Assembly (NCBI RefSeq): GCF_017377715.1
Contig: NZ_JAFVMF010000010.1
Coordinates: 1 to 64,000 of the forward strand
From: Acetobacter sacchari
Lineage (GTDB): Bacteria > Pseudomonadota > Alphaproteobacteria > Acetobacterales > Acetobacteraceae
Direction of reading: 5' to 3'
DNA length: 64,000 nt
A model generated the notes under the pieces. That model made no database searches and was not told the origin of the DNA. It was given only the letters and a program-made list of their open reading frames with translations. Position numbers and translations under genes: made by a program. Of the stretch, positions 7,996 to 34,380 are shown piece by piece. Each line of letters starts with the position of its first letter. Position 1 is the first letter of the stretch.

Positions 7996-8040
7996 CTTCT
8001 CCGCTGTTGGGAGAAGCCTGAACCCTCATGATGCGACGAG
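7996..8040 (-). promoter_or_regulatory. Leader of dotD: GTCGCATCATGA motif plus RBS-sequestering hairpin
   Basis: On the minus strand a T-rich tract is followed by CTCGTCGCATCATGAG (8025-8040). After it comes a perfect 7-bp stem, CTTCTCC/GGAGAAG (8010-8016 and 7996-8002), with a 7-nt loop. The 3' arm GGAGAAG is the ribosome binding site of dotD. The same motif-plus-hairpin layout is seen ahead of other transfer genes. A regulatory role is inferred. Confidence 0.6.
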
Positions 8041-8170
8041 ATTCAAAAAAATGCCTGATCGTTGAATTATCGACGATCTCTTCGCTCGACTTACTCGTGC
8101 GATTTGGAGTGGTTGGGAACGAAGCCGAAACTTGGCTGTGCGAAGCGGCGCCGCCCTTCGGGGGCCTGGA

Positions 8171-8197
8171 ATGAATGGGAGTTTTCCGCCCATTCAT
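8171..8197 (-). terminator. Putative terminator after the cargo gene
   Basis: A perfect 9-bp inverted repeat (ATGAATGGG 8171-8179, CCCATTCAT 8189-8197) with a 9-nt loop lies ten bases after the stop of the minus-strand gene at 8207. There is no strong U tract, so an intrinsic terminator is likely but not certain. The approximately 215-bp gap up to dotD otherwise holds the dotD leader. Confidence 0.5.
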
Positions 8198-8206
8198 CCT
8201 GAAAGG

Positions 8207-9934
8207 TCAGGTTAGAAGGTTGGCATTCGAAACGTGCGTCGTTAGCGCAGCAACCATGGTCTGTCCAAGAGAAGCGGAAGAAGCCACTGCGGACGCTACG
8301 GTCGTAGATGACGTTCCATTCATAGCCGCCGCGATGTCGTTCGACCAAAGGTTGGCGGCGGCCTGAAATGAACCCGGCGCATCGGCTGGTAGAAAAGATA
8401 TCGGATTCACATCAGAAACGCCCAGAACGGTTGAGCTTGATCCGTTTTCATAGGTAGTGGTGCCCATGGTCTCTTGCTGGGTCTGAGGGTCGTAAGCAGC
8501 GCCATAGGAGATGGTTTTGTCAACCGACCCGGCGGAGCTGTAGAACGATGCAGACCATGCCTGCGAGCCTTCATTGGGCAGATAAAGAATAAGGGAAGTC
8601 CCGTCCGTCTTGTCGAGAGTTATTGAAGAAATGGTGTTGCTTCCCCCTAAAAAATTCATTTGATCCCTGGACCAGTCGCCAGAAACAGGTGTGAACGCCA
8701 CTAATTCTGGAGTTTGATTAGTATCTGGCGTGGTTGCTGACAGAAGCTCGGACGCCACTATATTGCTTCCATCGGCAGACCAGACATCACCGCCGCTTGT
8801 ATAACTCCCATATTGATTCGGCCCAGTGGCGCCACTGATGCTTTCGACTATACCACCAGACGGATTGTAGATATTATTACTTAGTATAGCGCCCAAACCA
8901 TCTGTTACGCTTGCCTGCTGGTAGGTAATGAAACTGTATGACTCATCGTCATTGACATGGGCGCCAACAGAATACCCAAGCTGCAGACCGCCGTCTGAGG
9001 TGTCGCTTTGCGGGGCGTTGCTCCCTCCAAATATGGTACTGTGGGCGGTTCTGTATTGCCTTTCAGCGGAGAGGTCACCTGCCGATAATGTTGGGGCATT
9101 GGCGATGAGGTTTGCGCCTAATTCAGTTGTGGAGGTCGTGACGGACGACCATTTCCCCGTTCCTTCATCATAGATGTTGCCGTCGATGACATCTGGCGAT
9201 CCCACGATTGGCGCCCCTGACGCAATATCGTACATGCGGGAGAAGAGGTCTTCCTTGACGGATAGGGGAGCCGAGGCGTTGTAAGCCGTTTGCCCGATAT
9301 TTTTCAGGTCAGCAAGAAAGCCTGTCACACCATGCGAAAAATCAACAGGGCGGGTATCATTCGCAGCCGCAGCGTTCGCTGCGAGGAATTTGTCGAACTG
9401 GCCGCCTTTATCAAAATCTGTTCCCGAGACTAGAGCTGCCGATATCTGATCGCCAGGTGTCGAGCCTGTCGTCCCATTGGAGTACTGCGGAGCGCTGGTC
9501 CAGTAGTAAAAAGAACCGCCCCACCCGCCGATGGTCAGCCCAAAATCCGAGATCGCGACCGATATGTCCTGACCAAGAAGCTGCGGGAGAGAAAGTATGC
9601 TGGCTGAATCGATAATACTTCCGATGACGTGACGTCCGATATCGTCGGAAACGGCTTGTCCATTATCATCTGGTGTCTTGCCATCAAGCCTTTCCCCATA
9701 GGCTGTTTCCGACCGTATGAAATCGCGTGAGAGAGAGAAACTGCTATTGTCAGGGTCGTTTATCTGGACGGCCTGTTGGTACCAAAACAGCGTGCCCGCA
9801 TCCAGTCCAAGTGTATTCTGGTTCGATGATATATAGGAATAAACGTCCTGATAGCATTGGTATATGCTGCCGTTTCCTGAATTATAGTCGGTCTTTAACT
9901 TCGTTATGAAGTCGGCAGGCAGTGTGTTGCTCAT
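8207..9934 (-). CDS. Unknown 575-residue cargo protein inside the Dot/Icm operon
   Basis: I do not recognise this protein. It has no signal peptide, no clear membrane helix and only one Cys. It is very rich in Ser, Thr, Asn, Gly and Asp, with many Tyr-containing turns (TSAPQYSNGTTG, YGSYTSGGDVWSADGS). The C-terminal 60 residues become Ala-rich and helical. Base composition is visibly more AT-rich than the flanking dot genes, a sign of separate origin. Its start forms an ATGA overlap with the stop of a small membrane protein gene. The pair interrupts the dotO-dotD order. A substrate of the secretion system, or a toxin with its protector, is an attractive inference, but no catalytic motif is recognisable. 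Confidence 0.75.
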   Translation of the reverse strand: MSNTLPADFITKLKTDYNSGNGSIYQCYQDVYSYISSNQNTLGLDAGTLFWYQQAVQINDPDNSSFSLSRDFIRSETAYGERLDGKTPDDNGQAVSDDIGRHVIGSIIDSASILSLPQLLGQDISVAISDFGLTIGGWGGSFYYWTSAPQYSNGTTGSTPGDQISAALVSGTDFDKGGQFDKFLAANAAAANDTRPVDFSHGVTGFLADLKNIGQTAYNASAPLSVKEDLFSRMYDIASGAPIVGSPDVIDGNIYDEGTGKWSSVTTSTTELGANLIANAPTLSAGDLSAERQYRTAHSTIFGGSNAPQSDTSDGGLQLGYSVGAHVNDDESYSFITYQQASVTDGLGAILSNNIYNPSGGIVESISGATGPNQYGSYTSGGDVWSADGSNIVASELLSATTPDTNQTPELVAFTPVSGDWSRDQMNFLGGSNTISSITLDKTDGTSLILYLPNEGSQAWSASFYSSAGSVDKTISYGAAYDPQTQQETMGTTTYENGSSSTVLGVSDVNPISFLPADAPGSFQAAANLWSNDIAAAMNGTSSTTVASAVASSASLGQTMVAALTTHVSNANLLT

Positions 9935-10401
9935 TGGGAAGTATCCTTTCTAAATAGATAAACGATTGATCCAGCCAAGATACCGACAAAGAAGGCAATC
10001 AAAATAGGACCTTTATAAAACATTAAGGTCCACGAAAGCGTGAGTGGTTCGTTGTTACTGATTCTATAGCTAACAGTTATTTGGTAGCTGGTAATGATCG
10101 CGGCTATCCCTCCCGTCAGAACCAAAGATCCAATGCCACGGCCCAGCATTTTCACTAAGAGCAAATGAACAACTATGGAGGTCGGGGCAGACATGGAAAA
10201 GAACAGCGCTGCGAACAGAGCTTCTGCCAGCACGTACACTCTCCCGCAGTCAGGACACCCTATTTTACTCTCTGCTGCGGAAAGATGTTGCGTGAAGTAC
10301 AGAGACAAGGCCATGCAGGGCATGTAAAGAGCAGCCCAAACGCCGGAAAGGACAAGTGGAGGAAAAAGGTATTTCCGAACCATCTTTCGTCTTGATCCCA
10401 T
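9931..10401 (-). CDS. Small polytopic membrane protein coupled to the cargo gene
   Basis: A 156-residue protein with about four hydrophobic helices (approximately residues 10-28, 48-70, 80-100 and 122-145) and a short CPDCGRVYVLAE segment that may be periplasmic. I start it at the ATG at 10401, which has GAGG eight bases upstream; the ATG at 10383 is an alternative. It is AT-rich like its downstream partner and overlaps it by four bases, so the two are made together. By position it could be an immunity, entry-exclusion or anchoring protein for the 575-residue product. Sequence alone cannot decide between these. Confidence 0.75.
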   Translation of the reverse strand: MGSRRKMVRKYLFPPLVLSGVWAALYMPCMALSLYFTQHLSAAESKIGCPDCGRVYVLAEALFAALFFSMSAPTSIVVHLLLVKMLGRGIGSLVLTGGIAAIITSYQITVSYRISNNEPLTLSWTLMFYKGPILIAFFVGILAGSIVYLFRKDTSQ

Positions 10402-10438
10402 ATCCCGCCTCAAAGGCTGCACGACGGCCCAGTGTTTG

Positions 10439-13400
10439 TTACTCAGCGGCGATCGCCATATCCTCGGCCATCTCCATCGAGCGCACCCGGTCATGGACCC
10501 CTGCGGCTATGCCTCGGGCGTCGAGAATCTCGCGGGCGAGTTCGTCGATCACCCCCATCTCGGCGTCCTCGCTGGAAAGACCGGTTTCCTGCACACGGGC
10601 TTCCTTGCGTCGGGTGATCTCTCCCATGGCGGAGCCTCCAGGAAACACCGAAGCCAGATACCGCAAGGCGGTGCGAGACCCTGTCGCCGCCACCAGACGC
10701 GAGCGCAGCGCGGTGTCGCCTGGCGTGGAGCTGAAGCCCCACAATTCTATAGGCCCAAGAACATTGACGAGCTGCACCTCGTATTGGCCTTCAGCGGCGC
10801 GAAGCTGAAGAAAGAAAGGCGCGCCGCCGCGACCCGGGCCGGGGAGGGAGTTCCTCACGACGTAAGCGCTCGCAGGCGTCAGTTCCCAGCGCGAGATGAG
10901 TTCATCAGCATCGCTGGTGTCGCCGGTTTTGAGCACCCAGCGTCCTGTGCTCAGTCCCAGGAGATCGTCGCTGAAATCCCGCGGACGCTGGGATATGAAT
11001 CCCATCTGCACGTTATGTTTGCGTCCCTCACGGACGTCGCGGACCGCCTGTGCGTCGACCTGCGGCGCGGACTGCGCCCTGTGCCATTCATCGAAATCGA
11101 TGCGTTTGACGGTTTCGACCATCTCGGTGAACCGCGCCAGGTGGTAGGCGCGCATCTTGGCAGGCATGACCGGTTCGTCCGCGTAATCCGGATGCAGGAA
11201 GAAGTTTCGGGCGATGAGCTGACGGCCCAGCATATACATCAGCGCGGTCTGACGGTCTGCCGCGACCGATCCCTTTGGCGCCACCTCGGACAGATCGATC
11301 ATGATCACACGGGCGTCGCCCACGTCGAGCTGGGTAGGGGCGGCGAGTGTGGGGAAGTTCTTGATGACGTTCATGATATAGCGGTCGAAGACGTCGATCA
11401 GGCTCTCCCCGGTCTCGATCTTGATTTTCTCGTATCGCTTGGAGATTTCTGGCGTTCTGGCCGCGCGCAGGAGGTCCTGCAGGATCGGCACTGCGTGACG
11501 CTGGGCAATGCCTGCTGCGCGATAATCCCCGACATCGAGCAGGGCCTCGACCACGTCCCGCCACCAGGTCGGGTCGTCGTCGCCGCCATGGTGCGGCAGC
11601 GCAAGACCATGTTTTTCAATGGCCGCGTCAACAAGAAGCTCGGTTCCCGGACGGTAGAGCTTGGGTTCGCCGCCTGAAACATCCGTGCAGAGCCTGTAAG
11701 CTTCGTCGATCACGTCCTGGACCAGGTGATCCATCCCCTCGAAGGGAGGCTTACCCAGAGGCGTTGCGAGAAGGGAAATAAAGTTCTCCAGAAAGACCCG
11801 CTCCAGCGGCAACGGATATTGCAGACCAAGCTGGAGATCGAACACGTTGATTTCATAGCCATGACTTTTCTGAAGCTTAAGAAAAGCAGCCTCGTGCGCG
11901 CGCTCCGGGCCAAGGGCCGATTGCAGGAGATCCACAAAACCTTTCCCGCCCGGGCCGATATCGAGCTTGCCTATGAAGGGCAGTTTCGCGCCCGTCCCGG
12001 ACAGGGCGGCGGAACTCAGAACAAGGCCGAGATTGATCGTGTTGCTCAGAACGGTCTTGCCGCCCCCCATCGGAGCCACGATGATATCGGCCACCGCCTC
12101 ACGCAGGCCGCCGCCCGTTGGATCGAAGGGCCAGATTGAGCCGTCGGGCCTGCGGAAAAGAATGCTGCCCTGTCGCCACGGGGAGGCGCTTCGCGCCCAT
12201 GGCATCTTGGCGAACGCGTCGCCCACCAGCGCAAGAGACGGATTGGCCGTGCTGCCCAGCGCCAATGTGGGGATCGATCCCATGGCGGCTTCCAGCGGAT
12301 CGCCGCTTACGCGTGTCGTCTTGCAGTTGCCCCAGCCCTCGATCGCCTGCGACAGGGCCGAGGCCTGCCGACGCAGTTTCGGCTCCTGCCCGACCGGCGC
12401 CCATGTCGTCGCCGTCATGCGCAACCGGACCGAGTTGTGATTGTGGTGCTCGCGGGCGTCCTTTATGGACGCGAAAGCGCGGCGGATGTCGCCGTTTCCT
12501 GGCAACATCGCCAGAAATCCGGCGCCGATCTGTTTGAAGGCGAACGCCGCGCCGCCCCCGCTTTCAAGAATCATGGCGCTGCGCCATGGCACGCGCTTTT
12601 TTCCCAATACGGCTGAGAGCTCGGAGAAGGGGCGCGGATCTTCCGGACCAATCACCATATCGACGGGCGCGTAGCTGTAATCGCCTACGGTGACGAGCTG
12701 TCCGCCCACGGTGTGAGCGTCGGCGTTATACATCTGATCGCGGATTGCCGGCCAAAGTTCTCCCTCGGGCGTCGGCCCTGGGGCGTCAGGATCATCGGGG
12801 AGGCGCGGCATGATCCGATCGCCGATCAGGCATGGCTTCCAGTTCGTCGCCGTCGTTTCACGATAGATCACCTCACGGGTCACGCTTAGCGCTTCATGGG
12901 GATCGAGGATCGTGCAGGAGATATCGAGACCCTTCAACGCGCCTTCTACTCTTTGGACGAAAGCGTCATGACGGGCCGCCATGATTTCACTACGCAGGGC
13001 GAAACGCTGACTGTATCCGACGCGCGGAAACGCCTTTGCGATCTCCGCCTGTTCTGCGGCGGACTGCTTGCGCTCTTCGCGGGTGAGAACCCCCTTGCGC
13101 GTCCACAGGACGTAATAGGCGGATTCCGAACGCATGACATCCGGCCAGCGGCGACGCCGTTCTCCGAGCAGATCGTCCATATCGAGGCCAATGCGCCTGG
13201 CGATGCCTCGGCATGAGCTGAGGCACATGCGATCGATCTCGGGACCGGCGGTGTCTGGATCCGAGATATACCAGCCTACGATCGCGTGCCCCTTTTCTTC
13301 GAGGAGGCCCTGAAGCTCGATGCGCTGCTGCTCGGCGATGGCCTCGATCTCCTGGCGGGTGCACATCCTGCGCAAACCGCTCACGCGAAGAACAGAGACA

Positions 13401-13522: not shown

Positions 13523-13534
13523 GATGTGCACCTG

Positions 13535-14164: not shown

Positions 14165-14176
14165 TTTATGCCCGCC

Positions 14177-14623: not shown

Positions 14624-14651
14624 AGATAGTACTCCTGTTGTCATGACAAAC

Positions 14652-14698
14652 GGGGATCAGCCCCACAGTTGAGGGAGCCTGTTCATGATGAGACGAAA
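14652..14698 (-). promoter_or_regulatory. Leader of dotP: variant GTCTCATCATGA motif and hairpin
   Basis: On the minus strand TTTCGTCTCATCATGAAC (14681-14698) lies 57 nt before the dotP start. It is followed by a small stem GGGG/CCCC (14652-14664, GGGGCTGATCCCC). The motif differs from the consensus at one core base (GTCTCAT instead of GTCGCAT). The same variant occurs ahead of the gene at 22339. Confidence 0.5.
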
Positions 14699-14715
14699 CA
14701 GACTTATTTTGAGAT

Positions 14716-15252: not shown

Positions 15253-15262
15253 GGCGCGCTCC

Positions 15263-16462: not shown

Positions 16463-16465
16463 GAG

Positions 16466-16522
16466 GCGATCCTGCCCTTTCTGATGAGACTGAGGGCAGG
16501 ATCGCTGGTCGTCATGCGACGG
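16466..16522 (-). promoter_or_regulatory. Leader of the dotF-like gene: motif plus 13-bp hairpin
   Basis: On the minus strand CCGTCGCATGACGACC (16507-16522) follows a T7 tract. It is followed by a perfect 13-bp stem (arms 16493-16505 and 16466-16478) with a 14-nt loop, CAGTCTCATCAGAA. The 3' arm AGGGCAGGATCGC contains the likely ribosome binding site. Loop and stem resemble those in the dotI leader, with a compensatory pair change. A conserved RNA structure is inferred. Confidence 0.65.
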
Positions 16523-18754: not shown

Positions 18755-19390
18755 TTAATTCCGTGCCGGGCCAACAACCAGCTGGCTGATGGCGAGACCA
18801 TCGGGATGGTCCATGTCGTCAACCCGGTCGATGACCAGGGTCGCCATGAGCGTCTGGGTGTTTTGCTGATTGACGTTTTCGCATGTCTGGATGAAGGGAA
18901 ACTGCACGACATACTGGGCGCGGCCGTTTACGACCTTCTGGTCACGGACCGTTGCGGCGCGCGTCGGCTGAGCGAAACACAGCAATTTTGCCTGTTTCAG
19001 CTTGTCGAGATTGCCCTGCTTGATGAAGGACCGTGCGAAACTGTTCCAGCCGTCGATCGTGTAATGAGCGCCCGCTACATTTAGCAGAGACGGGTAGTCC
19101 CGATAATTGATGTTATATGGCGCAATTCCCCATCGAACAGCCCATGACAACAGCTGATCCTGTCCAAGGATCGGACTGTCGAGCGGCACGGCAGGGCGGG
19201 GCGGGTTCTGTCCGTCCACAAAGAAAAACTGCGGCCTCGGCGGATGCACCCAGACGAATACGTCATGAATCGCGAATATCGCCAACAGGATCGCCAGAGC
19301 GATGTTCACCCAGAGCGAGCGTTCGACGACAAGACCTTGAAAATCCGGGTCGCTGAGACGCCGGAGCGTGGCCGTGTTCTGCAATTTCAT
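18755..19390 (-). CDS. dotI: Type IVB inner-membrane protein DotI/IcmL (TraM-like)
   Basis: DotI is an inner-membrane protein of the core with a VirB8-like periplasmic domain. The 211-residue length equals the Legionella protein (212). A short cytoplasmic segment is followed by a transmembrane helix (near 27-47). The periplasmic domain contains RPAVPLDSP, WAVRWGIAPYNINYRDYPS and YTIDGWNSFARSF, closely matching the family pattern. It is the first gene of the minus-strand operon. Its leader (19391-19500) contains the shared motif and hairpin. GGGAGGACGCC gives a normal ribosome binding site. Confidence 0.93.
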   Translation of the reverse strand: MKLQNTATLRRLSDPDFQGLVVERSLWVNIALAILLAIFAIHDVFVWVHPPRPQFFFVDGQNPPRPAVPLDSPILGQDQLLSWAVRWGIAPYNINYRDYPSLLNVAGAHYTIDGWNSFARSFIKQGNLDKLKQAKLLCFAQPTRAATVRDQKVVNGRAQYVVQFPFIQTCENVNQQNTQTLMATLVIDRVDDMDHPDGLAISQLVVGPARN

Positions 19391-19444
19391 GGCGTCCTCC
19401 CGAGGAAGACACCGGCGATGGAAACTCTTCGGCCCGTCATGGGA

Positions 19445-19494
19445 CTGTCCTTTCTGATGTCATTGAGGACAGGGTGACGAGTTCAGATGCGACC
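19445..19494 (-). promoter_or_regulatory. Leader of dotI: motif plus conserved-loop hairpin
   Basis: On the minus strand GGTCGCATCTGAAC (19481-19494) is followed by a perfect 7-bp stem (AGGACAG/CTGTCCT arms, 19466-19472 and 19445-19451) around a 14-nt loop CAATGACATCAGAA. The loop matches the dotF leader loop at 11 of 14 bases. One stem pair differs by compensatory substitution. It lies 55-105 nt upstream of the first gene of the operon. Confidence 0.65.
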
Positions 19495-19527: not shown

Positions 19528-20415
19528 TTATGCCGCCAGATCATACGTATCGACAATTCCACGCAGTTTGCGGGAATTACGCGCGCGACGGCTGATGCGA
19601 CGCAGTGAGCTGTTAGTCCAGAAACTGGCGTCGTCCAGGATGTTGCACGGGCGGCGGAAGATGTTGCGCGTGCGGATATAATCCAGCGCGTCTTCGGCCA
19701 CGAAATACGCAAGCCGCTTGCGGCGGGAATCCGGAATGCATTCCTCGAGACTTGCGTGCGAACGCACGGAATTGGATGTCAGCAGAAAATCATCTGCGAT
19801 GATGTGGTGGTTTTGCAGGGCGAAATAGCGATGCGCGCACTCGATGTTGGCCGCTTCATTCCAACGGATCTTGTCCGAATTCGGACTGCTGCTCACCGTG
19901 ACCTGATAACGGCAGGCTCTGACCGCCCATGTACGGCCTCTGCGCTCTTGCTGGGTGAGGACGCTCGCCTGCGCCCAGGTCAGGATTTGGTCGGGAGCGC
20001 TCTCAAGGGCGCTTTTGCGTAACGCACAATGATGCGCCATGGCCTGCTCTCGACTCACCTGAATGCGGGCTGGCAGACCCAGAGAGCGGCGCTTGCCTGA
20101 AACGCTGGACCGTGAGCGCTTCAGCGTTTTTGCGATTTCGTCAGCCTGCGCTCCACGGTTCCACATCTGCCCCAGTATGATCAGATCACGGCGACGCCAC
20201 GCCTTTTTCCGGTCAGGAACCTTGTAGCCGTCCATCGCCGGTTTCTTCGCCCAGCCCTCACACGCGGCTTCAGCCTCGCGGATCGTAATTCCCAGCAATT
20301 CAGCCGTTACCGCGAAGTCTCGCGTCAGCCGGCAGACCCGCCTGATCATGTCGGTCGAGACGCTTTGCTCGATCCAGTAGCGGTCGTTGCGAATGATGAG
20401 GGCGCGTTCGGACAT
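19528..20415 (-). CDS. GcrA-like helix-turn-helix DNA-binding protein
   Basis: A 295-residue protein whose central part (about residues 75-120) reads KAWRRRDLIILGQMWNRG then a helix-turn-helix QADEIAKTLKRSRSSVSGKR followed by SLGLPAR. This resembles the N-terminal DNA-binding module of GcrA, an alphaproteobacterial cell-cycle regulator. In GcrA the module is at the N terminus; here it is embedded between unknown segments, so true orthology is unlikely. The C terminus is Arg-rich. I start at the ATG at 20415; a TTG start at 20463 is possible. It is monocistronic, between the two transfer operons, and may regulate them. Two direct repeats lie in its upstream region. Confidence 0.7.
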   Translation of the reverse strand: MSERALIIRNDRYWIEQSVSTDMIRRVCRLTRDFAVTAELLGITIREAEAACEGWAKKPAMDGYKVPDRKKAWRRRDLIILGQMWNRGAQADEIAKTLKRSRSSVSGKRRSLGLPARIQVSREQAMAHHCALRKSALESAPDQILTWAQASVLTQQERRGRTWAVRACRYQVTVSSSPNSDKIRWNEAANIECAHRYFALQNHHIIADDFLLTSNSVRSHASLEECIPDSRRKRLAYFVAEDALDYIRTRNIFRRPCNILDDASFWTNSSLRRISRRARNSRKLRGIVDTYDLAA

Positions 20416-20461
20416 GGCGGTATCCCGACGAAAAATTAATGGCGTCGGAACATAAACGTAC

Positions 20462-20491
20462 AAACACCATCATGGTCAATATAAACACCAT
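20462..20491. repeat. Direct repeat pair upstream of the GcrA-like gene
   Basis: AAACACCAT occurs twice (20462-20470 and 20483-20491), 21 bases apart start to start. That is about two helical turns, as expected for a protein binding one face of the DNA. It lies about 50-75 bases upstream of the ATG at 20415 in an AT-rich stretch (20460-20650) that otherwise shows no gene. Operator function is inferred. Confidence 0.45.
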
Positions 20492-20803: not shown

Positions 20804-21649
20804 TCACCCTTGGGGAGGGTTTTCAAATCGACCAATACGACCAGAGGTTCGATAGATATACTCTAAAGTTGCAAGGAGATCGCTGACCTGACTGATCTGA
20901 TCTGCGGCAATCATTGCTGCTGCCCGCTGTTCAAGGTCGACCTGCAGCCGTTCGGCATCATCGTCATACCTTATAAAAAAGCCCGGAGAAACGCGAAGGG
21001 CTTCGGCAAGCTGATACATTGTCTGAAGCGATGGATTTTGCATCCCAGCTTCAATAACAAACACTGACCCAAGAGGTACACCAGATTTTGTGGCAAGTTC
21101 TGATCTGGACCACCCTTTCAGAATTCTTAAACTACGAGTGCGTCTGCCTAGTGTAATGAGGCTCTCCAAAGCATTCGGTGAGGTGATTTTGTAGCTTTCT
21201 TCAGCCGTGAAAACAGCCACTGCCCCGTCTATATTTGGCTTCACCGTTCTGGCGACGTCAGAGAGAAGACGAATCAGATCGAGCATCTGGGGTTTGAACT
21301 CTTGTAGGCGCTCTGTTGTTCGCATCAACTCTTCTGTCTTGTCTTTCGTCAGGAGAGGTTGGAAATCATCCAACGCACCCCCATGTGGAGGTAAAACCTC
21401 CATCGGATCGAGTTGCATGGCTTTAATAATGCCAGATAGTGTCCCGACAGAGAATCCTTTTCCATTCTCTTTACTTATCTCGAAATACTTGACTGTGCTC
21501 ATATTAACGCCGGATATGAGTGATAGTCGCTGAACTGAAAGGTCTATGCTTTTTCTATATTCATGCAACTCCCGACTTATCTCTTTATATAGTGCTCCGT
21601 TTTTAAACAATTTAGCGTTGGCCTGCGTCTCTTTCGGTTTCTTTGCCAT
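20804..21649 (-). CDS. Transcriptional regulator with two XRE-type helix-turn-helix domains
   Basis: A 281-residue protein with a first Cro/C1-type domain near residues 30-85 (RLSLISGVNMSTVKYFEISKE) and a second near 175-235. The second reads RRTRSLRILKGWSRSELATKSGVPLGSVFVIEAG, then PSLQTMYQLAEALRVSP. The two are separated by a helical linker. The start ATG at 21649 has GAGAG upstream; an upstream extension is unsupported. It is divergent from the transfer operon starting at 21851, with two palindromes in the shared intergenic region. Lower GC than the tra genes suggests separate acquisition. A role as regulator of transfer genes or of copy control is inferred from position. Confidence 0.85.
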   Translation of the reverse strand: MAKKPKETQANAKLFKNGALYKEISRELHEYRKSIDLSVQRLSLISGVNMSTVKYFEISKENGKGFSVGTLSGIIKAMQLDPMEVLPPHGGALDDFQPLLTKDKTEELMRTTERLQEFKPQMLDLIRLLSDVARTVKPNIDGAVAVFTAEESYKITSPNALESLITLGRRTRSLRILKGWSRSELATKSGVPLGSVFVIEAGMQNPSLQTMYQLAEALRVSPGFFIRYDDDAERLQVDLEQRAAAMIAADQISQVSDLLATLEYIYRTSGRIGRFENPPQG

Positions 21650-21672
21650 CTCATATACTCTCTCGGCAGGCG

Positions 21673-21718
21673 CCCCGATCGCCATAAGATCGGGGACAGA
21701 GCGCCCTGTTCAGGCGCT
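21673..21718. promoter_or_regulatory. Two adjacent palindromes between divergent regulator and transfer genes
   Basis: CCCCGATC (21673-21680) pairs with GATCGGGG (21688-21695), and AGCGCC (21700-21705) pairs with GGCGCT (21713-21718). Both are perfect inverted repeats with 7-nt spacers. They sit 24-70 bases upstream of the XRE gene start and about 130 bases upstream of the operon at 21851. They could be operators for the XRE protein or leader hairpins. Confidence 0.5.
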
Positions 21719-21807: not shown

Positions 21808-21849
21808 GGTCGCATGATATGGGTCTGATCTGGTTTCGAAGGAGAAACC
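21808..21849 (+). promoter_or_regulatory. Leader of the tcpQ-like gene: motif plus hairpin presenting the RBS
   Basis: GGTCGCATGATATG (21808-21821) follows a T5 tract. A stem GGTTTC/GAAACC (21832-21837 and 21844-21849) follows, and its 6-nt loop GAAGGA plus the next bases form the ribosome binding site directly before the ATG at 21851. It has the same arrangement as the other transfer-gene leaders. Confidence 0.6.
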
Positions 21850-21850: not shown

Positions 21851-22312
21851 ATGATCATTCCCGCCATCATCCTTGCATCTGGCCTAACCGCACCGGGTTA
21901 TCCAGCACCTGCATCGTATCAGAACGTGTCATTCCAGCTCGTGCAGGGCGGACCTGCGCCCCGACAGCCGCAAATCCAGCCTGCCGCCTCGCCGTCTGCT
22001 CCCGTAGACAAAGCCGACGCAGGGCCGGACCAGGCCCCCGTCTCGAAGCCACAAAACCATTTCCGCCTTGCAGCGGGCTATGGCCACAGTGTGCCCCTTG
22101 GCTTCGCCGTTCGCCAGATCGTGCCGAGGGGCGTGAGGGTTTCCTTCGCAGACGGCGTTGACACCCAAACCCCGGTAGACTGGGCTGGCGGGGAAACATG
22201 GAACCGCGTTCTGGCGGCGACGGTCGCTCAAGCCGGTTACCGGATCGATGTCGGCCACAACGAAGTCACCATTCTCTCAAAAAAACCTGTTTCGTCTCAT
22301 CATGAGCCCTGA
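21851..22312 (+). CDS. TcpQ/secretin N-domain-like periplasmic protein
   Basis: A 153-residue protein, probably exported: it has a short hydrophobic N-terminal helix (IIPAIILASGLTAPG). A Pro/Ala/Gln-rich spacer follows. The C-terminal domain (about 75-145) reads VPLGFAVRQIVPRGVRVSFADGVD, then PVDWAGGETWNRVLAATVAQAGY. This pattern (W-x-GG-x-x-W-x-x-VL) is that of toxin-coregulated-pilus Q (TcpQ) or PilL-type domains that bind outer-membrane secretins. It starts the plus-strand transfer operon, and the next gene's leader motif overlaps its 3' end. It may be an outer-membrane accessory of the Dot core; DotD has a related fold. The exact role is unproven. Confidence 0.75.
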   Translation: MIIPAIILASGLTAPGYPAPASYQNVSFQLVQGGPAPRQPQIQPAASPSAPVDKADAGPDQAPVSKPQNHFRLAAGYGHSVPLGFAVRQIVPRGVRVSFADGVDTQTPVDWAGGETWNRVLAATVAQAGYRIDVGHNEVTILSKKPVSSHHEP

Positions 22313-22333
22313 CGCTGGCCTCACCATGGAGGC
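22291..22333 (+). promoter_or_regulatory. Leader of the gene at 22339: variant motif plus RBS hairpin
   Basis: TTCGTCTCATCATGAG (22291-22306) follows an A7 tract and lies over the end of the previous coding region. It is followed by GCCTC/GAGGC (22318-22322 and 22329-22333), a 5-bp stem whose 3' arm contains the GGAGG ribosome binding site. The start codon is six bases further on. The core variant GTCTCAT is shared with the dotP leader. Confidence 0.55.
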
Positions 22334-22338: not shown

Positions 22339-22716
22339 ATGAAAACAGGTTCGTCACCGCAAGCTGGCCAACCGCGACCCAGGCACGGCGACGTCCTGAT
22401 CGCGATTGAAAACCTTGCGCAGGATATCACCCAGCACGGGCGCGATTACGTCCTTCAACGTCTGTCCGACCCGGAACTCCGCCAGTTCTGGGCGTCGACC
22501 CTCGACGCCATCCCCCCGGAATACTGGGATGACGTCCGCAAGGCCCTCGATGAACTGACCGGCGAACACGGCAGCGCAGCCGGGCTTCTCCCGGCTGAAT
22601 CGGTCTTCGGGCGTGGGGTTTTTGGCCGGGGACGAGTGGAAACGATCTCCCGGCTTCTGGCCCCCGAGCGCCTGCAGATCCTCGCCAACTTGCTCCCGGC
22701 GAGGGCTCCGGCATGA
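22339..22716 (+). CDS. Unknown small protein of the transfer operon
   Basis: A 125-residue, mostly helical cytoplasmic protein that I do not recognise. It has an early amphipathic segment (DVLIAIENLAQDITQHGRDYVLQRLSDPELRQFW), a loop with FGRGVFGRGRVETISRL and a Leu/Ala-rich C terminus. It has no signal peptide or membrane helix. The start has a GGAGG ribosome binding site in a hairpin, and its stop overlaps the next start as ATGA, so it is translated with the exported protein downstream. A role in the transfer system is inferred from the operon only. Confidence 0.75.
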   Translation: MKTGSSPQAGQPRPRHGDVLIAIENLAQDITQHGRDYVLQRLSDPELRQFWASTLDAIPPEYWDDVRKALDELTGEHGSAAGLLPAESVFGRGVFGRGRVETISRLLAPERLQILANLLPARAPA

Positions 22717-28227: not shown

Positions 28228-28252
28228 CAAAAGCGAGGCAAAGGAGGGAGCA

Positions 28253-28663: not shown

Positions 28664-28677
28664 CTCTTTTATCGTAT

Positions 28678-28737
28678 CTGGTCGCAAGATGAGGCCGCAT
28701 CGTCTGATCCATCACAATGGAGATGACAATGCGGCCT
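28678..28737 (+). promoter_or_regulatory. Leader of the lipoprotein gene: motif plus stem overlapping the start codon
   Basis: CTGGTCGCAAGATGAG (28678-28693) overlaps the 5' arm of a perfect 9-bp stem, AGGCCGCAT (28692-28700) and ATGCGGCCT (28729-28737). The 3' arm begins with the start codon itself, and the 28-nt loop holds the GGAG ribosome binding site. A T-rich tract (TCTTTTTTTCTTCC) follows immediately, so the structure looks like an attenuator or terminator inside the 5' end of the gene. Confidence 0.6.
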
Positions 28738-29037: not shown

Positions 29038-29054
29038 AACAACGGGATTGTCCG

Positions 29055-29073
29055 CCCCCCCCCAGTCGGGGGG
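29055..29073. terminator. GC hairpin between convergent genes
   Basis: A run of nine C (29055-29063), the loop AGTC and six G (29068-29073) form a very stable short stem between the convergent genes ending at 29037 and 29081. There is no T tract. It probably acts as a bidirectional barrier or terminator. Confidence 0.5.
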
Positions 29074-29080
29074 AGACGAT

Positions 29081-29626: not shown

Positions 29627-30648
29627 CGGCCGACCTCGGCCAGAAAGGCTGCAATGTCACGAGGATTGCCCTCATAGCGGCCGAGCGATCCGTCACGACG
29701 GATCCACAGAAATGTGGGCGTGCCCTTCAGGTCGACGCCTTTAGCAAATGCAGCGTTGTCCGCCAGGAACTTCGTCGCAGTGTCCGCCGGCGTATCGGCG
29801 CGGGCGTTCAGCCGTCCGTTCAGCCAGGCGCTGGCCATCTCGTTTTCGGGAAAGGAGAGCATGGCTTTCGCGTTGATCGTGCTCTCCCCGTGGTCCTCAT
29901 AGTCGAGAAGGGAAAGCGGCACGATCTTGAGCCGCAATTGACCGGCCTGAACTGCGGTCATGAGGCTGTGACCGGCCCTGATGGAATACATGCACTGGGG
30001 ATCTATCAGCATGACCACTTCAGGCGCGTTGGCCGAACCGATCTCGCCGCCATGGAGCCCGGTAAGCGCTGCCTGGGTGATCTGTCCGGCGTCCATTCGG
30101 ACAGTGGGCACGGCGCCGGGTATCGAGCGGATCTGCTCGCGTGTGACGTCATGGCCGCTCGCATCCCACAGCGAGCCTGCGATCGCCGCCTGCCCGTCGG
30201 GAGTCGCGTAGATGACCTGGAAATGATCTCCATTTTGCAAAAACATGCCACGAATCCCATGCCACGGGGCGAGTTCGGTCGCGCGCTTTCCGGAAAGGGC
30301 TCGCAAGGTGTCGTATGGAGCGGGAATGGCCGTCCCGCCGAGCACGCCTGCGTGGTCCTTCGGAGTGAAGAAGACGAAAACCCGATCGGGGGCATAGGCG
30401 ACGCCGGTTTCAAAGCCATGAAACGCGCCCTGTGCGGCAATCCTTGCTCCTGAGCCGGTCAACCGCTTGAGAGCGTCGCTATCAGGGGCAGTTTGCGCCT
30501 GTGGAGGAGTTATGTGGTCGGCCAGAGCCATAACTTTTACGTCCGTTGGCGGCGCTACGCCACCAGAGGGAACGGCGCATTGCTGCGCTACCGCCATACC
30601 AGGCGTCAGAAAGCCAATGACAAGGGCGGTCGGAAAAAAACGAGGCAC
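29623..30648 (-). CDS. TrbB-like periplasmic thioredoxin-fold protein (DsbC/DsbG type) with CXXS site
   Basis: A 341-residue exported protein (signal peptide ending near GMAVA) resembling DsbC/DsbG-type isomerases and IncI TrbB. The thioredoxin-like half has VVMLIDPQCMYS where DsbG has a DP-x-C-P-x-C motif. Cys219 is kept but the second Cys is Ser222. A cis-Pro region (LKGTPTFLWIRRDGSLGRYEG) follows. A CXXS site can isomerise or hold mixed disulfides but cannot by itself oxidise. The start is GTG at 30648, with GGGAG in the arm of an upstream hairpin. Nearby exported proteins rich in Cys are plausible clients. An N-terminal linker of about 120 residues is unassigned. Confidence 0.8.
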   Translation of the reverse strand: MPRFFPTALVIGFLTPGMAVAQQCAVPSGGVAPPTDVKVMALADHITPPQAQTAPDSDALKRLTGSGARIAAQGAFHGFETGVAYAPDRVFVFFTPKDHAGVLGGTAIPAPYDTLRALSGKRATELAPWHGIRGMFLQNGDHFQVIYATPDGQAAIAGSLWDASGHDVTREQIRSIPGAVPTVRMDAGQITQAALTGLHGGEIGSANAPEVVMLIDPQCMYSIRAGHSLMTAVQAGQLRLKIVPLSLLDYEDHGESTINAKAMLSFPENEMASAWLNGRLNARADTPADTATKFLADNAAFAKGVDLKGTPTFLWIRRDGSLGRYEGNPRDIAAFLAEVGR

Positions 30649-30655
30649 AGCAATC

Positions 30656-30703
30656 TCCCAACATGATGTTGGGACCAGCGTTACAGAGCCATGATGCGAC
30701 CAG
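30656..30703 (-). promoter_or_regulatory. Leader of the trbB-like gene: motif plus palindrome covering the RBS
   Basis: On the minus strand CTGGTCGCATCATGGC (30688-30703) is followed by TCCCAAC/GTTGGGA (palindrome 30656-30674). The 3' arm includes the GGGAG ribosome binding site just before the GTG start at 30648. The motif overlaps the end of the upstream coding region (30681). Confidence 0.6.
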
Positions 30704-31067
30704 TTGCAGTTGTTTCCACAAAAACGAGGGGCGCCGATGCCGGCGGCGGTTCCCAGCCGGTCGGCTCCGGGGTGACTTCGGGCAAAAGCGGCTTGATGGT
30801 TTTCATAAATCGCGAAATCAGCTTTCGTTCGCCTTGATTCGCTGTGCGGCGGTAACGTCGGATGACGCCGACAAGATATACCCAGTGTTGCTGTGGATAG
30901 ATAATCCTGATCGTCTTGGAAGGGCTCATAATACTATACGGTTGACCGGGGATGGACCTACGCAAGGTGTGCTCAAGAAAAAAAATGGCCTCCCGTACGC
31001 AGGATGGCAGATCTTCTTTTGATAGCGGTCCAAGGGCGGCGAGCGTTCGGTAGTAATCTCCATGCAT
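30681..31067 (-). CDS. Unknown small protein upstream of the trbB-like gene
   Basis: A 128-residue protein starting at the ATG at 31067 (AGGA eight bases upstream); a TTG start at 31094 is possible. It begins with a helical segment (YYRTLAALGPLSKEDLPSC), followed by SKTIRIIYPQQHWVYLVGVIRRY, a beta-like stretch with two aromatic residues. It ends in a basic helix and a Pro-rich tail. It has no signal peptide. I cannot assign a family. The leader motif for the next gene lies over its 3' end, so the two are in one direction but independently controlled. About 265 bases separate it from gapR on the other strand. Confidence 0.65.
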   Translation of the reverse strand: MHGDYYRTLAALGPLSKEDLPSCVREAIFFLEHTLRRSIPGQPYSIMSPSKTIRIIYPQQHWVYLVGVIRRYRRTANQGERKLISRFMKTIKPLLPEVTPEPTGWEPPPASAPLVFVETTATGRIMAL

Positions 31068-31282
31068 GGCAAATTCCTGAAATTCTATTTCCAAATAAAT
31101 GGCGGGATGTTCTTCATCTTCTCCGTTTGTTTATCGTTGCAATTAATGACGGATTGTTGCTGCACGTAAACTGTCTCTCTCTACGTAACATCCGGATTTT
31201 CACGCGTCCGTGATCATCTTGTGCGTTTCAGAGAATGGCTGTGGCGATCATGTCGCGCACGGGTCCATTTTTCTTTCTGTTT

Positions 31283-31296
31283 GGTCGCATCCTGAG
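31283..31296 (+). promoter_or_regulatory. Shared motif in the gapR-like leader
   Basis: GGTCGCATCCTGAG (31283-31296) follows a T-rich stretch and lies 36 bases before the ATG at 31333. Short stems such as GCTG/CAGC follow but are weak. It matches the consensus seen ahead of the transfer genes. Confidence 0.55.
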
Positions 31297-31332
31297 ACAG
31301 CAGGCTGGTGGGACACAGCAAGGAGCGGAGCT

Positions 31333-31608
31333 ATGCTCGCCACAGTGGACCAACATGACGACACCAGCCCCGAAATCGGCGGGATCGCCGTCGACCGCCT
31401 GCGCTCCATCATCGAGCGCGTTGAAAGACTTGAAGAAGAGCGCAAGGCTCTGTCCGGCGACATCAAGGACATCTTCGCCGAGGCCAAATCTGCCGGGTTC
31501 GACGTGCGGACGATCAAACAGATCCTGAAGCTTCGGCGTCTGGAGCCGTCTGCCATCGAGGAACAGGAGACGCTGCTCGACATTTATCGCCGCGCGCTCG
31601 GCATGTAG
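31333..31608 (+). CDS. GapR-like nucleoid-associated protein (DUF2312)
   Basis: A 91-residue protein matching the GapR/DUF2312 family. GapR binds over-twisted AT-rich DNA and assists topoisomerases during replication in alphaproteobacteria. The family pattern is clear: VDRLRSIIERVERLEEERKA, then DIKDIFAEAKSAGFDVRTIKQ and a C-terminal EEQETLLDIYRRALGM. The ATG at 31333 is preceded by AAGGAGCGGAG; the longer reading to 31210 lacks support. Plasmid-borne copies are common next to replication genes, and here repC lies about 1.4 kb downstream. The leader carries the shared transfer-region motif, so it may be co-regulated with conjugation. Confidence 0.9.
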   Translation: MLATVDQHDDTSPEIGGIAVDRLRSIIERVERLEEERKALSGDIKDIFAEAKSAGFDVRTIKQILKLRRLEPSAIEEQETLLDIYRRALGM

Positions 31609-31617
31609 GATCGCAAC

Positions 31618-32517
31618 ATGCCGCATAAACTCCGCACATCTACGCTTGTTGTCGCAAGCTGCCTCCTTCTGGCCGGGTGCAAGGAAAAGCGCCACAGCGA
31701 CAACACGCCACATGTCGCTAAAGCCTCGCTAAACCTGCTTGCGTCTCCAGGCGCCGCGTCTGGGGTGGGCATGGCGAGCGCTCGCGCCCGACAACAGAAA
31801 CTCGCCTACGACCACGATCTCCAGCTCCGCGTTCCGGCCGGGTTGGTCGAGCGCCATTTCAACGCCCTTCGGGACAGCTGTCTTCAAGACGTGGATCTCG
31901 ACTGTACGCTGTTGAATGCGCGTGTTAGTCACGATTTCACGGGCGGGCGACCGTCCGCCCGGATCGAGGCGCGCCTTCCCCATCAGGCCGTGGGCCGCTT
32001 CATCGAAAACGCAACCCGCCCTCTGTCGGGTGAAACAGCCCAGGATGTGGCCGTTACGGCCCAGTCCACAACCGCCGAAGACCTGACGCCGCAGGTCGAG
32101 GACACGGGGCGCAGGATCCGCCAGCTGACGGCCTATCGCGACAGGCTGGAGGCCCTTGGCGGACGGGATAATGTGCGGACGGAAGACCTGATCCGTATCG
32201 CGCACGAGCTGTCGGACGTTCAGACCCAACTCGACGATGCCCAGTCAAATCAACGGGTTCTGGACCACCGGATCGATACCGAGCTGGTGACCGTGAGCTA
32301 TGACTCGCTCGTGCCTGAAGCAGGTCCGACAAGCCCCCTGGCAGAGGCGTGGCGTAACGCCCGGAGCACCTTTATCGAGAGCTGCGCCGACGTCCTTCTG
32401 TTCTGCATGATGGCGATTCCCTGGGTCCCGGTGATCGTGCTTGCGGCCGGAATCGGCCGACTCGCCATGCGCCGCTGGAAATGGCGTCCCTGGACTCGGA
32501 AAAACAGCGTCAAGTAG
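31618..32517 (+). CDS. DUF4349-type lipoprotein
   Basis: A 299-residue lipoprotein with lipobox LLAGC (Cys21). The middle (about 65-240) matches DUF4349 organisation. There is a beta-rich domain (DLQLRVPAGLVERHFNAL, then ARVSHDFTGG, ARIEARLPHQAV). A coiled coil (LTPQVEDTGRRIRQLTAYRDRLE, then ELSDVQTQLDDAQSNQRVL) and a short beta strand follow. The protein ends with a transmembrane helix (about 258-280) and a basic tail. It follows gapR by nine bases, so the two are co-transcribed. The function of DUF4349 proteins is not established. The downstream 500 bases contain no convincing gene. Confidence 0.82.
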   Translation: MPHKLRTSTLVVASCLLLAGCKEKRHSDNTPHVAKASLNLLASPGAASGVGMASARARQQKLAYDHDLQLRVPAGLVERHFNALRDSCLQDVDLDCTLLNARVSHDFTGGRPSARIEARLPHQAVGRFIENATRPLSGETAQDVAVTAQSTTAEDLTPQVEDTGRRIRQLTAYRDRLEALGGRDNVRTEDLIRIAHELSDVQTQLDDAQSNQRVLDHRIDTELVTVSYDSLVPEAGPTSPLAEAWRNARSTFIESCADVLLFCMMAIPWVPVIVLAAGIGRLAMRRWKWRPWTRKNSVK

Positions 32518-33019
32518 CTGTTTTAGCGTCGATAATCGCCTCTTTTGTTGTCGCGGCGCCCCCGAACAACTAAGCCCTTATGGTTGGTCGCATCATGACC
32601 CTGCACCCTGTCTGTCGGGATGCAGGTGTCGTGTCCGCCAGCCGGGCTGTTCGCGCGCCGTCGCCTCTCCCTGCCTCAGGGGAGGACGGGGGAGCGAAAA
32701 CCCGCAACCCGCCTCTGTGCGGCGCATGCCGCGTCGCACCCTGCGTTTCTGAAAGGAGGATCGCCGTGGATTAACCAGACCCCAGAAATGACTGAGGCCC
32801 CGCTTTCGCGAGGCCCACAGGCAAAAAACTCTAAACTGTGGCGCTGAATTACCGAGGTAACGAAGCGCTTACGGGCGATCAGAAGAAATCATGTTTGGCG
32901 ACATTTTCTTCCGACATCGCCCGTGAAATTGCAAGTCTTTTCTTGCCACGGGAGAGGTTTGCCTTGTGGGTTGGGCGCGTCGCGGGACGGTTTTCACCTT
33001 CCGTCGGACATAAAAACAC
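32518..33019 (+). promoter_or_regulatory. Intergenic region upstream of repC with shared motif and hairpins
   Basis: This 500-bp stretch has no convincing long gene. GGTCGCATCATGACC (32586-32600) is the transfer-region motif, followed by CCTGCA/TGCAGG (32600-32605 and 32621-32626). At 32751-32774 a very strong GAAAGGAGGA site precedes GTG GAT TAA, a possible minimal leader ORF. At 32793-32812 GGCCCCGC and GCGAGGCC form an imperfect stem. In repABC plasmids an antisense RNA gene lies just before repC; this stem might be its terminator, but that is inference. Confidence 0.45.
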
Positions 33020-34333
33020 ATGGTCCCAACAGGTTACGCCCAGGTATCGGGCGCAAGAAAAATAACGGCCGCCATGGTGCGCGCACGTTCTGACGTCGAG
33101 GCTTTGCCTCTCAGGCCCGTCAGTCCGGCAGATCTTCATCGCGGGCTACGGCAGGGTCGGCCGGTGCTCGGCCTGACATGCCAGCAACTCGAACTGCTCT
33201 GCTATCTGATCGCCTTTACCGACGCGGCCGACTGGAGCGGCGAGGACGACGCTCTGCCCGTGGCGACCGCATCCAATCTCGACATTCAGCAACGCTTCGA
33301 TCTCGGTCGCACCCGCGTGAAGACGCTTTTGCGGGAGCTGGCCGAGGCGGGATGGATCCTGCACCGCGACAGCGCCAACGGGCATCGTTATCGCCGATCA
33401 AGCGCACATGGCCCGCGTGGCCAGCAGGCCTACGGGTTTGATCTGTCTCCGCTCGCCCGACGGTTCGACGAGATCAGCCGCGCGGCCCAGACCGCCTTGT
33501 GGCGCCAGCAGGAAGGGAGACGGCTGCACAGGGAGGCCATGTCTCTGGCTCGCACCGTTTACGGGCTGGCCCAACCCGCCCTGGAAGCCGGGCTTGCGGA
33601 GAAGACCATCAGTGACGCAACTCGCCGCGCAGCGGCTCTGATCGCAAGACGGGGCCAGGAGCGTGATCCGGCGTGGCTTGATCCGCTCTGCCAGGAGTTG
33701 AGGCGGATCGCCCTCGATCTGGAGCAGGGCATCGCCCTGAGCAGGCGGGCGCATCCGTCTGATGATGAGCCAGCGCTGGAGAAATCTGTGGAAAGTGACC
33801 CCGTGGGGTCACCTGAGCGACCCCACTATACTAATACAAACCTATCCAGTTCAGCTAAAGCTACTGTAGCAGCATCCGGCTCCGCCGGAACAGGCAATGA
33901 GGCGTCGCGTAGTCGATCGTCAGTCGTCTCCCATGCGCCGTCGAAGCAACCTGACCCGACAGGCCGCCCTGACGTGCTTCGTGGCTTCCGTGCGAACCCG
34001 TCCTTCGTGCTGCATATCGCGCCCGCCCTCAGGGAGTTCTGTTCGTCGGACCGCCCGTCAGAAGCCGAGATCGTGCAGGCGGCGCTGTTCGCCTGTCAGG
34101 GGCTGGGTATCTCCCGCCACGCCTGGGCGCAGGGACAGTCGGTGTTCGGCGATTATCCCAACGCGGTCGTGATCGCGGCGATTTCGGCGCGGTCCGACGC
34201 CGGCGAGGTTCGGTCTCCCGGCGGCATGTTGCGCGCGATGATCGGGCGCCATCTGGCCGGAACGCTTGCGCTTGATCGCACGCTCTACGGGCTAGCGGAG
34301 AAACATAGCGGCGGCCCCGGGCGTGTTCAGTAG
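33020..34333 (+). CDS. repC: Plasmid replication initiator RepC
   Basis: A 437-residue initiator of the alphaproteobacterial RepC family. The N-terminal winged-helix region includes FDLGRTRVKTLLRELAEAGW, then RDSANGHRYRR, and the diagnostic QQAYGFDLSPLARRFDEI. A low-complexity linker around 255-310 precedes a C-terminal domain (AEIVQAALFACQGLGISRHAW, then VVIAAISARS, SPGGMLRAMI) that also matches RepC. In RepC plasmids the origin commonly lies within repC itself, often in an AT-rich part; here the linker DNA around 33820-33890 is the most AT-rich segment. No repA or repB partition genes are adjacent. The ATG at 33074 is an alternative start. Confidence 0.88.
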   Translation: MVPTGYAQVSGARKITAAMVRARSDVEALPLRPVSPADLHRGLRQGRPVLGLTCQQLELLCYLIAFTDAADWSGEDDALPVATASNLDIQQRFDLGRTRVKTLLRELAEAGWILHRDSANGHRYRRSSAHGPRGQQAYGFDLSPLARRFDEISRAAQTALWRQQEGRRLHREAMSLARTVYGLAQPALEAGLAEKTISDATRRAAALIARRGQERDPAWLDPLCQELRRIALDLEQGIALSRRAHPSDDEPALEKSVESDPVGSPERPHYTNTNLSSSAKATVAASGSAGTGNEASRSRSSVVSHAPSKQPDPTGRPDVLRGFRANPSFVLHIAPALREFCSSDRPSEAEIVQAALFACQGLGISRHAWAQGQSVFGDYPNAVVIAAISARSDAGEVRSPGGMLRAMIGRHLAGTLALDRTLYGLAEKHSGGPGRVQ

Positions 34334-34366
34334 GGCGTTTGCGCAGAGATGATCGGGCACGGTTTT

Positions 34367-34380
34367 CCGTCGCATCATGG
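34367..34380 (+). promoter_or_regulatory. Shared motif upstream of the Fic-partner gene
   Basis: CCGTCGCATCATGG (34367-34380) follows a T4 run and lies 33 bases before the ATG at 34414, which has AAGGAG. Possible pairing GGC/GCC follows but is weak. It is the most downstream copy found. Confidence 0.5.

Follow-up and report, generated by a model that had tools for sequence, protein, structure and literature searches.

A recurrent 12-mer lying ahead of eleven genes within the first 64,000 nucleotides (hereafter, “the window”) of Acetobacter sacchari contig NZ_JAFVMF010000010.1 is most likely part of a conserved, plasmid-borne regulon promoter, the motif and its conservation both being observed directly. 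The genes concerned (dotD, the dotF-like gene, dotP, dotI, a TcpQ-like gene, the gene at 22339, a lipoprotein gene, a trbB/DsbC-like gene, a gapR-like gene, repC and the partner gene of a Fic module) lie on a plasmid contig of 177,937 b that makes up 3.9% of the 4.55 Mb genome, and the suggestion of an original prediction, made from the letters of the window only, that conjugation, replication, GapR and the Fic module are joined into one regulon is supported by the data presented here. As to how such a promoter would work, we consider it rather probable that it is a dedicated one, in which a factor-bound element is combined with a minimal sigma70 -10 box and with a Shine-Dalgarno “lock” acting on read-through mRNA.

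Every one of the eleven sites originally listed is present at its coordinates and in the sense orientation. The enrichment of the bare 12-mer is moderate only: allowing up to two mismatches, it had 20 matches in the window versus 9.04 expected (100 shuffles, the largest count being 16), while a plain 12-mer matrix at a loose threshold gave 101 matches against a column-shuffled mean of 41.9, and, because one of the 100 column-shuffled matrices gave even more (106), the signal resides in the strong sites. These were addressed with a main matrix covering columns -8 to +22 (31 columns, with column 0 being the first G of the element), which was trained on 36 sites from other plasmids only, and which scored each of the 11 window sites at 15.2 or above. 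Over the whole contig, it returned 18 matches at a score of at least 18 (mean 0.17 and maximum 1 in 60 first-order Markov controls) and 24 at a score of at least 14 (mean 1.2 and maximum 4). When the full pattern GTCGCATSAYGRN6AN3T was sought throughout the genome, six of its seven perfect occurrences fell on this contig; with one mismatch allowed, there were 35 places, 15 on the contig and 20 in the other 4.4 Mb, and even the latter exceed the three places found genome-wide for the reversed pattern at the same stringency. Elsewhere in the genome, the full pattern is thus uncommon. Seven more sites of the same layout lie beyond the window (contig positions 140661, 149317, 149264, 163450, 164904, 166002 and 168482). 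An arrangement not shared by the other sites is found at contig positions ~152515-152562 (L015), where two elements pointing towards each other form an inverted repeat with arms of 19 bases and a gap of 10 bases; it could be either a source of RNA carrying motif and “anti-motif” or a decoy site.

The promoter interpretation stems from an alignment of 57 sites, which includes orthologues and whose sites are hence not independent (three of them, i.e., two second tandem copies and the site at contig position 153111, were removed before one later matrix). Downstream of the 12-mer, the only strongly conserved columns are an A at +18 (45/57) and a T at +22 (46/57), forming an A-N3-T at a fixed place six bases past the element; the same bases are found in 8 and 10 of the 11 window sites, respectively, and in 8 and 9 of nine Gluconobacter oxydans H24 sites from outside the alignment. 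Judging by sequence, A(+18) and T(+22) are A(-11) and T(-7), the key bases of the sigma70 -10 box. Mapped G. oxydans promoters have a -10 box of the form “nAtnnn”, its first position being t in 40% and c in 39% of the cases (PMC5756330; this and the other works cited are drawn on here in excerpt), and the first position is similarly C, G or T in the sites described here. Upstream of the 12-mer, a T-rich stretch (-8 to -2) is preceded by an A-or-T tract (-15 to -10), which bears out the A or T homopolymer noticed originally, as the fixed orientation and distance are borne out as well. No conserved -35 box of the TTGnnn type was seen in the 57 sites, columns -6 to -1 reading TWTYYS, and, given this lack of a -35 consensus, a plain -35/-10 promoter is not claimed.

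Taking +22 as -7 places the predicted transcription start at +29 and the element at -29 to -18, so that the motif, which was originally thought to lie inside the 5' untranslated region (UTR), is predicted to lie upstream of the transcript instead; the -10 box, as well as the fact that the 5' arm of the leader hairpin precedes the predicted start, had been missed. A small helix-turn-helix (HTH) gene has its ATG exactly at +29 in eight of the nine copies fetched, which come from three genera (five from Acetobacter, two from Kozakia and one from Gluconobacter), and, of 32 sites in four loci for which a start is annotated 25-110 nt further on, none has it closer than 29 nt. In another Gluconobacter gene (L095 12690), an ATG in frame is likewise situated at +29, although the start given in the deposited record is the one at +5. 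A short upstream open reading frame (ORF) within the element was considered and rejected, as the ATG of its ATGA is not conserved (ATCA, ATTG, CTGA and ACGA variants occur).

The sequence between the element and the start codon differs from leader to leader, and many of the leaders form a hairpin that either pairs the Shine-Dalgarno sequence or loops it out. Leaders were collected by dropping 27 of 136 matches that had no rule-based start, followed by 19 repeats of identical leaders, and stability was compared with that of sequences in which columns 12-28 were shuffled while A18 and T22 were kept: of 48 non-redundant leader clusters, 21 had a native hairpin of significantly greater stability (p<=0.05; Fisher p 3e-15). 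A similar test on annotated genes yielded a significant hairpin for 7 of 16 motif genes versus 8 of 95 others (the gene tables for this and for the co-directional comparison given below were entered from the annotation and do not include every gene). Arm columns of six orthologous leaders have undergone paired double changes (11/18, 7/15, 11/14, 9/17, 2/11 and 5/10), counted in separate minimum-energy folds with columns numbered from the element and no phylogenetic null, and register shifts, such as those in the TcpQ-like leader, can inflate these counts; single folds were used because the automatic alignment of the dotF leaders was poor for distant members. The arms of the dotF hairpin, for example, read GATCCTGCCC/GGGCAGGATC in the window, GATCCTGTCC/GGACAGGATC in other Acetobacter and GATCCTTCTGGC/GCCAGAAGGATC in Gluconobacter. 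Approximately one half of the leaders possess a genuine hairpin; the original claim of hairpins pairing with the ribosome binding site is upheld by the paired changes between species and narrowed by their significance in a part of the clusters only. The bases of the 5' arm lie mostly in columns 13-29, which, with a start at +29, would make this arm promoter DNA that is missing from the unit's own mRNA and present in read-through mRNA.

The element precedes orthologous genes on plasmids of Acetobacter, Kozakia and Komagataeibacter. In the stretches read, the A. oryzoeni plasmid carries the set of window leaders with the element, and those of A. pomorum, A. ascendens and A. pasteurianus carry a part of it; genome G110 (taken as Kozakia baliensis) has 15 strict sites over two partly duplicate plasmids, and the Komagataeibacter and Novacetimonas loci have fewer and more diverged ones. 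The exact 12-mer occurs in 47 of 100 relatives (two places for the reversed control), many of these being single sites that may be due to chance. Strict sites were present in 12 of 49 genomes of the genus, six of them having at least three (none for the reversed control); of 299 genomes of the family, 33 had a site, mostly a single one (one for the reversed control). A Gluconobacter plasmid has a drifted version of the element, GTCGCAGATC, before several of the same genes: the dotD, dotF, dotI and other leaders of G. oxydans H24 carry GTCGCAGA[ATC]C (nine sites in the 50 kb read), a core that was first read off the leaders found with the full matrix, after which every match to it was listed. 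Such regulon-wide drift points to a trans-acting DNA-binding protein. Two plasmids of genome G022 (taken as A. oryzifermentans; L025, L058-L072) retain the element before maintenance genes, and neither transfer-pore genes nor the two regulators discussed below appeared there in the comparison; G022 looks like a derivative from which the transfer-pore genes have been lost.

As for the factor itself, the best, albeit unproven, candidate is a GcrA-domain protein encoded at 19531-20415. The modelled domain fold superposes with 0.8 A over 44 residues, at 36% identity, on GcrA (5yiv), which is the top structural match, while a Foldseek search of the model against solved structures gave no match at E<=0.001, and a sequence profile searched against solved structures gave weak matches only (KorB, E 0.026; GcrA, E 0.13). 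In all five relatives whose annotation was read, the gene is situated between the HTH_3 gene and dotI. Its own promoter resembles an ordinary sigma70 one (TTGAC in 5/5 aligned sequences), and a direct repeat near its predicted -35/-10 region is a possible operator, with the neighbouring HTH_3 protein possibly being the repressor of the GcrA-like gene. The small HTH protein was rejected as a universal factor, since no Komagataeibacter was among the 50 plasmid records found for it, yet Komagataeibacter plasmids have sites.

Put together, the element would be the factor-binding part of a dedicated promoter serving one plasmid regulon: a plasmid-encoded DNA-binding protein, most likely the GcrA-domain one, would bind GTCGCATSATGR at about -29 to -18, in place of a -35 box, and recruit the host's sigma70 polymerase to a minimal -10 box consisting of A(-11) and T(-7), with transcription beginning approximately 29 nt from the element's first base. 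In roughly half of the promoters, those with a significant hairpin, the promoter DNA would hold the 5' arm of the hairpin, whereas its 3' arm or loop would hold the Shine-Dalgarno sequence, so that mRNA from a unit's own promoter, beginning past the 5' arm, would be translatable, while read-through mRNA, having both arms, would be silent, and a hairpin-bearing unit would be expressed only once its own promoter has been switched on. The most specific form of this proposal, in which a GcrA-domain sigma70 cofactor with multiple HTHs opens minimal -10 promoters, promoter DNA doubles as the 5' arm of the lock and only activator-made mRNA is translated, so that the promoters of an entire Acetobacteraceae plasmid regulon would in effect discriminate transcripts by their point of origin, is put forward tentatively, as somewhat less likely than not.

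Several observations weigh against the proposal. On the promoter side, the published Gluconobacter -10 box is, in the excerpt of PMC5756330, without the conserved sixth base, and the ninth copy of the small HTH gene, residing on the window's own plasmid, lacks the element. In seven of the eight copies with a +29 ATG, an in-frame ATG is also found at +8, inside the element, and the +29 start codon therefore rests on annotation (two copies) and protein alignment; as the Gluconobacter copy additionally has an AGGA ahead of +29, the small HTH genes are probable, not proven, leaderless genes. On the side of the lock, 27 of the 48 clusters have no significant hairpin, and Shine-Dalgarno accessibility, which is more stringent than hairpin energy as a measure, is reduced in the long RNA for no more than 10 of 48 clusters (p<=0.05; Fisher p 0.003; leaders whose start lay more than 62 nt away, 15 of 90, were left out), the median unpaired probability being 0.44 in the long RNA versus 0.52 in the own-start RNA. 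Insulation from read-through would predict stronger hairpins behind co-directional genes, which are seen as a trend only (median z -2.6, n=9, versus -1.8, n=12; p 0.09), and, given a short UTR, the placement of the 5' arm upstream of the start partly follows from geometry. Lastly, on the side of the factor, the GcrA-like protein is missing from three of the six genomes with at least three strict sites (G022, G036 and G043), and five genomes that do match it have two or fewer such sites. GcrA acts at YGAKTCG (PMC7987155), whereas the element has no YGAKTCG, and no GANTC is found in the 57-site consensus.

The alternative that fares best, although we deem it unlikely, is a repressor operator (e.g., of the HTH_3 protein) within an otherwise weak sigma70 promoter, where binding between -35 and -10 would block the polymerase and release would activate the regulon. 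Repressor sites are often located at such a position within a promoter, GCATSATG(C) comes close to being a palindrome, and in all five plasmids inspected at the level of annotation, the HTH_3 gene adjoins the GcrA-like one; the HTH_3 protein matches 22 plasmid records, 20 of them from Acetobacteraceae. An unaided polymerase, however, would find no conserved -35 box here, the orientation fixed in 11/11 window sites is not something that a palindromic operator would need, and the GcrA-like gene itself is without the element; activation seems more plausible than repression. Less likely still is an alternative sigma factor, plasmid-encoded or rare, reading the element and the A-N3-T as its promoter. 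The bipartite sequence is indeed regulon-wide, several HTHs are predicted in the GcrA-like protein, and sigma-factor chains are among the insignificant Foldseek rows (E 2.7-4.8); nonetheless, the first bases of GTCGCAT and of the -10 box are 17 bp apart, which is less than the 22-24 bp usual for sigma factors, the -10 box resembles that of the host sigma70, and the top structural match of the candidate is GcrA.

The RNA leader element that had been offered originally, with a promoter-proximal operator as its alternative, would have the start upstream and the element in the 5' UTR, where a protein or small RNA would bind it and open the hairpin over the ribosome binding site. The hairpins are real and change in pairs, the order of element and hairpin is fixed, and the +29 start is a predicted one; all the same, the RNA version is now regarded as quite improbable and the DNA version is favoured. 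The A/T tract may be either poly-A or poly-T, which argues for recognition of double-stranded DNA and not of RNA; A18 and T22 stay fixed relative to the element, whatever the hairpin; and a leader hairpin could not be accommodated ahead of a gene whose ATG is at +29. No Rfam family matched the leaders at the gathering score. (The sole Rfam match at this score, 61.5 bits, is a ROSE RNA thermometer at 59534-59617 (-) of the window, on the plasmid.) That the leaders are merely recent duplicates of one sequence, similar in motif and layout without any function, can practically be dismissed, as the sequence from motif to start codon differs among paralogous leaders, and the conservation of the motif across genera, with its concerted drift in Gluconobacter, already contradicts it.

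The sites assigned to the proposed dedicated promoter, together with the two candidate regulator genes, are collated below.

Table. Putative promoter elements, leader hairpins and candidate regulators in the window (coordinates are window positions)
Feature	Coordinates	Strand	Details
dotD promoter element GTCGCATCATGA	8026..8037	-	-10 box 8015-8020; predicted start 8008; start codon 7992
dotD leader hairpin arms	8009-8018 / 7993-8004	-	
dotP promoter element GTCTCATCATGA	14683..14694	-	-10 region 14672-14677 (CTCCCT, without A); predicted start 14665; probable start codon 14623
dotF-like gene promoter element GTCGCATGACGA	16509..16520	-	-10 box 16498-16503; predicted start 16491; start codon 16462
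dotF-like leader hairpin		-	13 bp, covering the Shine-Dalgarno
dotI promoter element GTCGCATCTGAA	19482..19493	-	-10 box 19471-19476; predicted start 19464; dotI start 19390
Candidate activator	19531..20415	-	GcrA-type DNA-binding domain at residues 68-114; further predicted helix-turn-helices
Direct repeat TAYAAACACCAT x2	20459..20491	.	Precedes the GcrA-like gene, close to its predicted -35/-10 region
HTH_3 (Cro/C1-type) regulator	20807..21685	-	Second candidate
TcpQ-like gene promoter element GTCGCATGATAT	21809..21820	+	-10 region ~21826-21832 (no A at +18); start codon 21851
TcpQ-like leader hairpin		+	Shine-Dalgarno in loop
Gene 22339 promoter element GTCTCATCATGA	22294..22305	+	-10 box 22311-22316; predicted start 22323; hairpin GCCTC..GAGGC
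Lipoprotein gene promoter element GTCGCAAGATGA	28681..28692	+	-10 box 28698-28703; predicted start 28710; probable start codon 28729
trbB/DsbC-like gene promoter element GTCGCATCATGG	30689..30700	-	-10 region 30678-30683 (TAACGC, without T); predicted start 30671; start codon 30648
trbB/DsbC-like leader hairpin CCCAACAT..ATGTTGGG		-	
gapR-like gene promoter element GTCGCATCCTGA	31284..31295	+	-10 box 31301-31306; predicted start 31313; probable start codon 31333
repC leader promoter element GTCGCATCATGA	32587..32598	+	-10 box 32604-32609; predicted start 32616; repC start 33020
Fic partner gene promoter element GTCGCATCATGG	34369..34380	+	-10 region 34386-34391 (CTGACT, without A); predicted start 34398; start codon 34414

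Three of the start codons used originally (those of the lipoprotein, gapR-like and dotP genes) probably lie at the tabulated positions instead. The treatment of dotI as an exception to the spacing can be relaxed, as a hairpin, a Shine-Dalgarno sequence and, at 53 nt, an ATG (19440) are all found in the dotI leader; this ATG opens a leader-peptide ORF of 17 codons at 19387-19440 (-), MTGRRVSIAGVFLGRTP as read by hand, whose stop overlaps the dotI start, and a similar leader peptide, MKGYKGVVSVFLGGAR, is found in A. ascendens (L034 37135), making translational coupling of the leader peptide and dotI possible. Leader hairpins of the gapR-like gene (whose orthologues have DUF2312) and of the Fic partner gene are not significant in the window. 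Acetobacter repC leaders elsewhere have two tandem elements, 23 nt apart, far ahead of repC (L030 8324/8347, L034 24363/24386 and L024 13551/13574), and the window has one. As a separate observation, K. nataicola plasmid pKNA07 (L017) carries a DUF1173/TraM-recognition gene pair twice (~0.2-3.9 kb and 19.1-22.8 kb), with one of the DUF1173 copies annotated in two pieces.

Among the open-licence papers searched, neither the 12-mer itself nor any description of Acetobacter plasmids with DotI/GapR, or of Acetobacter/Komagataeibacter conjugative plasmids or promoter motifs, was found; as far as searched, the promoter sequence and its regulon-wide pairing with Shine-Dalgarno hairpins are new, while each part works like something known. 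The activators AcaCD and SetCD are FlhDC-like. In the AcaCD regulon of IncA/C plasmids, a single activator motif precedes numerous transfer operons and keeps a constant position upstream of their starts (PMC4207636), and the SetCD regulon of SXT/R391 similarly has one ahead of many transfer operons of a conjugative element; both, however, have a class 2 activator profile, and no embedded Shine-Dalgarno hairpins are mentioned in the excerpts describing them. The layout, and only the layout, is reminiscent of T4 middle promoters, in which a factor site centred at ~-30 (the MotA box) takes over the role of the -35 box, in conjunction with a sigma70 -10 box; the MotA box, however, is WWWTGCTTtA and lies 12 bp from the -10 (PMC2988021), as opposed to a 12-bp element at -29 to -18, 5 bp from the -10 hexamer. 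GcrA, the cell-cycle regulator of Alphaproteobacteria, works with sigma70 (PMC7987155), and its DNA-binding domain is resembled by that of the candidate factor, which differs in being longer and having extra domains, and the element differs in having no GANTC.

The closest parallel to the lock might be T4 gene e, whose long early transcripts form an inhibitory structure, while its late transcripts lack the 5' part thereof and are well translated: the hairpin of the long transcript locks the Shine-Dalgarno sequence (also in soc, 49 and I-TevI), and the promoter sits inside the DNA of the 5' arm, leaving the gene's own transcript without that arm (PMC3014915), which is the layout predicted here. 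In our leaders, too, a conserved hairpin contains the Shine-Dalgarno sequence, either in its 3' arm or in its loop, although this hairpin is significant in only 21 of the 48 clusters, and the T4 cases are single phage genes with late promoters, as opposed to the many promoters, predicted to belong to one plasmid regulon, with a sigma70-type -10 box. In the IS200 (PMC3196728) and sigG (PMC5942855) leaders, a stem-loop over the ribosome binding site lowers translation too, but these are, according to the excerpts, single genes and not a regulon, and the sigG hairpin belongs to the normal mRNA.

If the proposed dedicated promoter is true, it would constitute a previously undescribed (as far as searched) master regulon, for which a candidate regulator can be named, in a large family of transfer plasmids hosted by acetic acid bacteria of industrial use (vinegar, cellulose, kombucha). 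A trick of single phage genes would, moreover, be extended to many plasmid units, with the promoter sequence being half of a translational lock, i.e., a two-layer control, and there would be an explanation of how leaky expression by read-through is avoided on a plasmid whose many units are closely packed.

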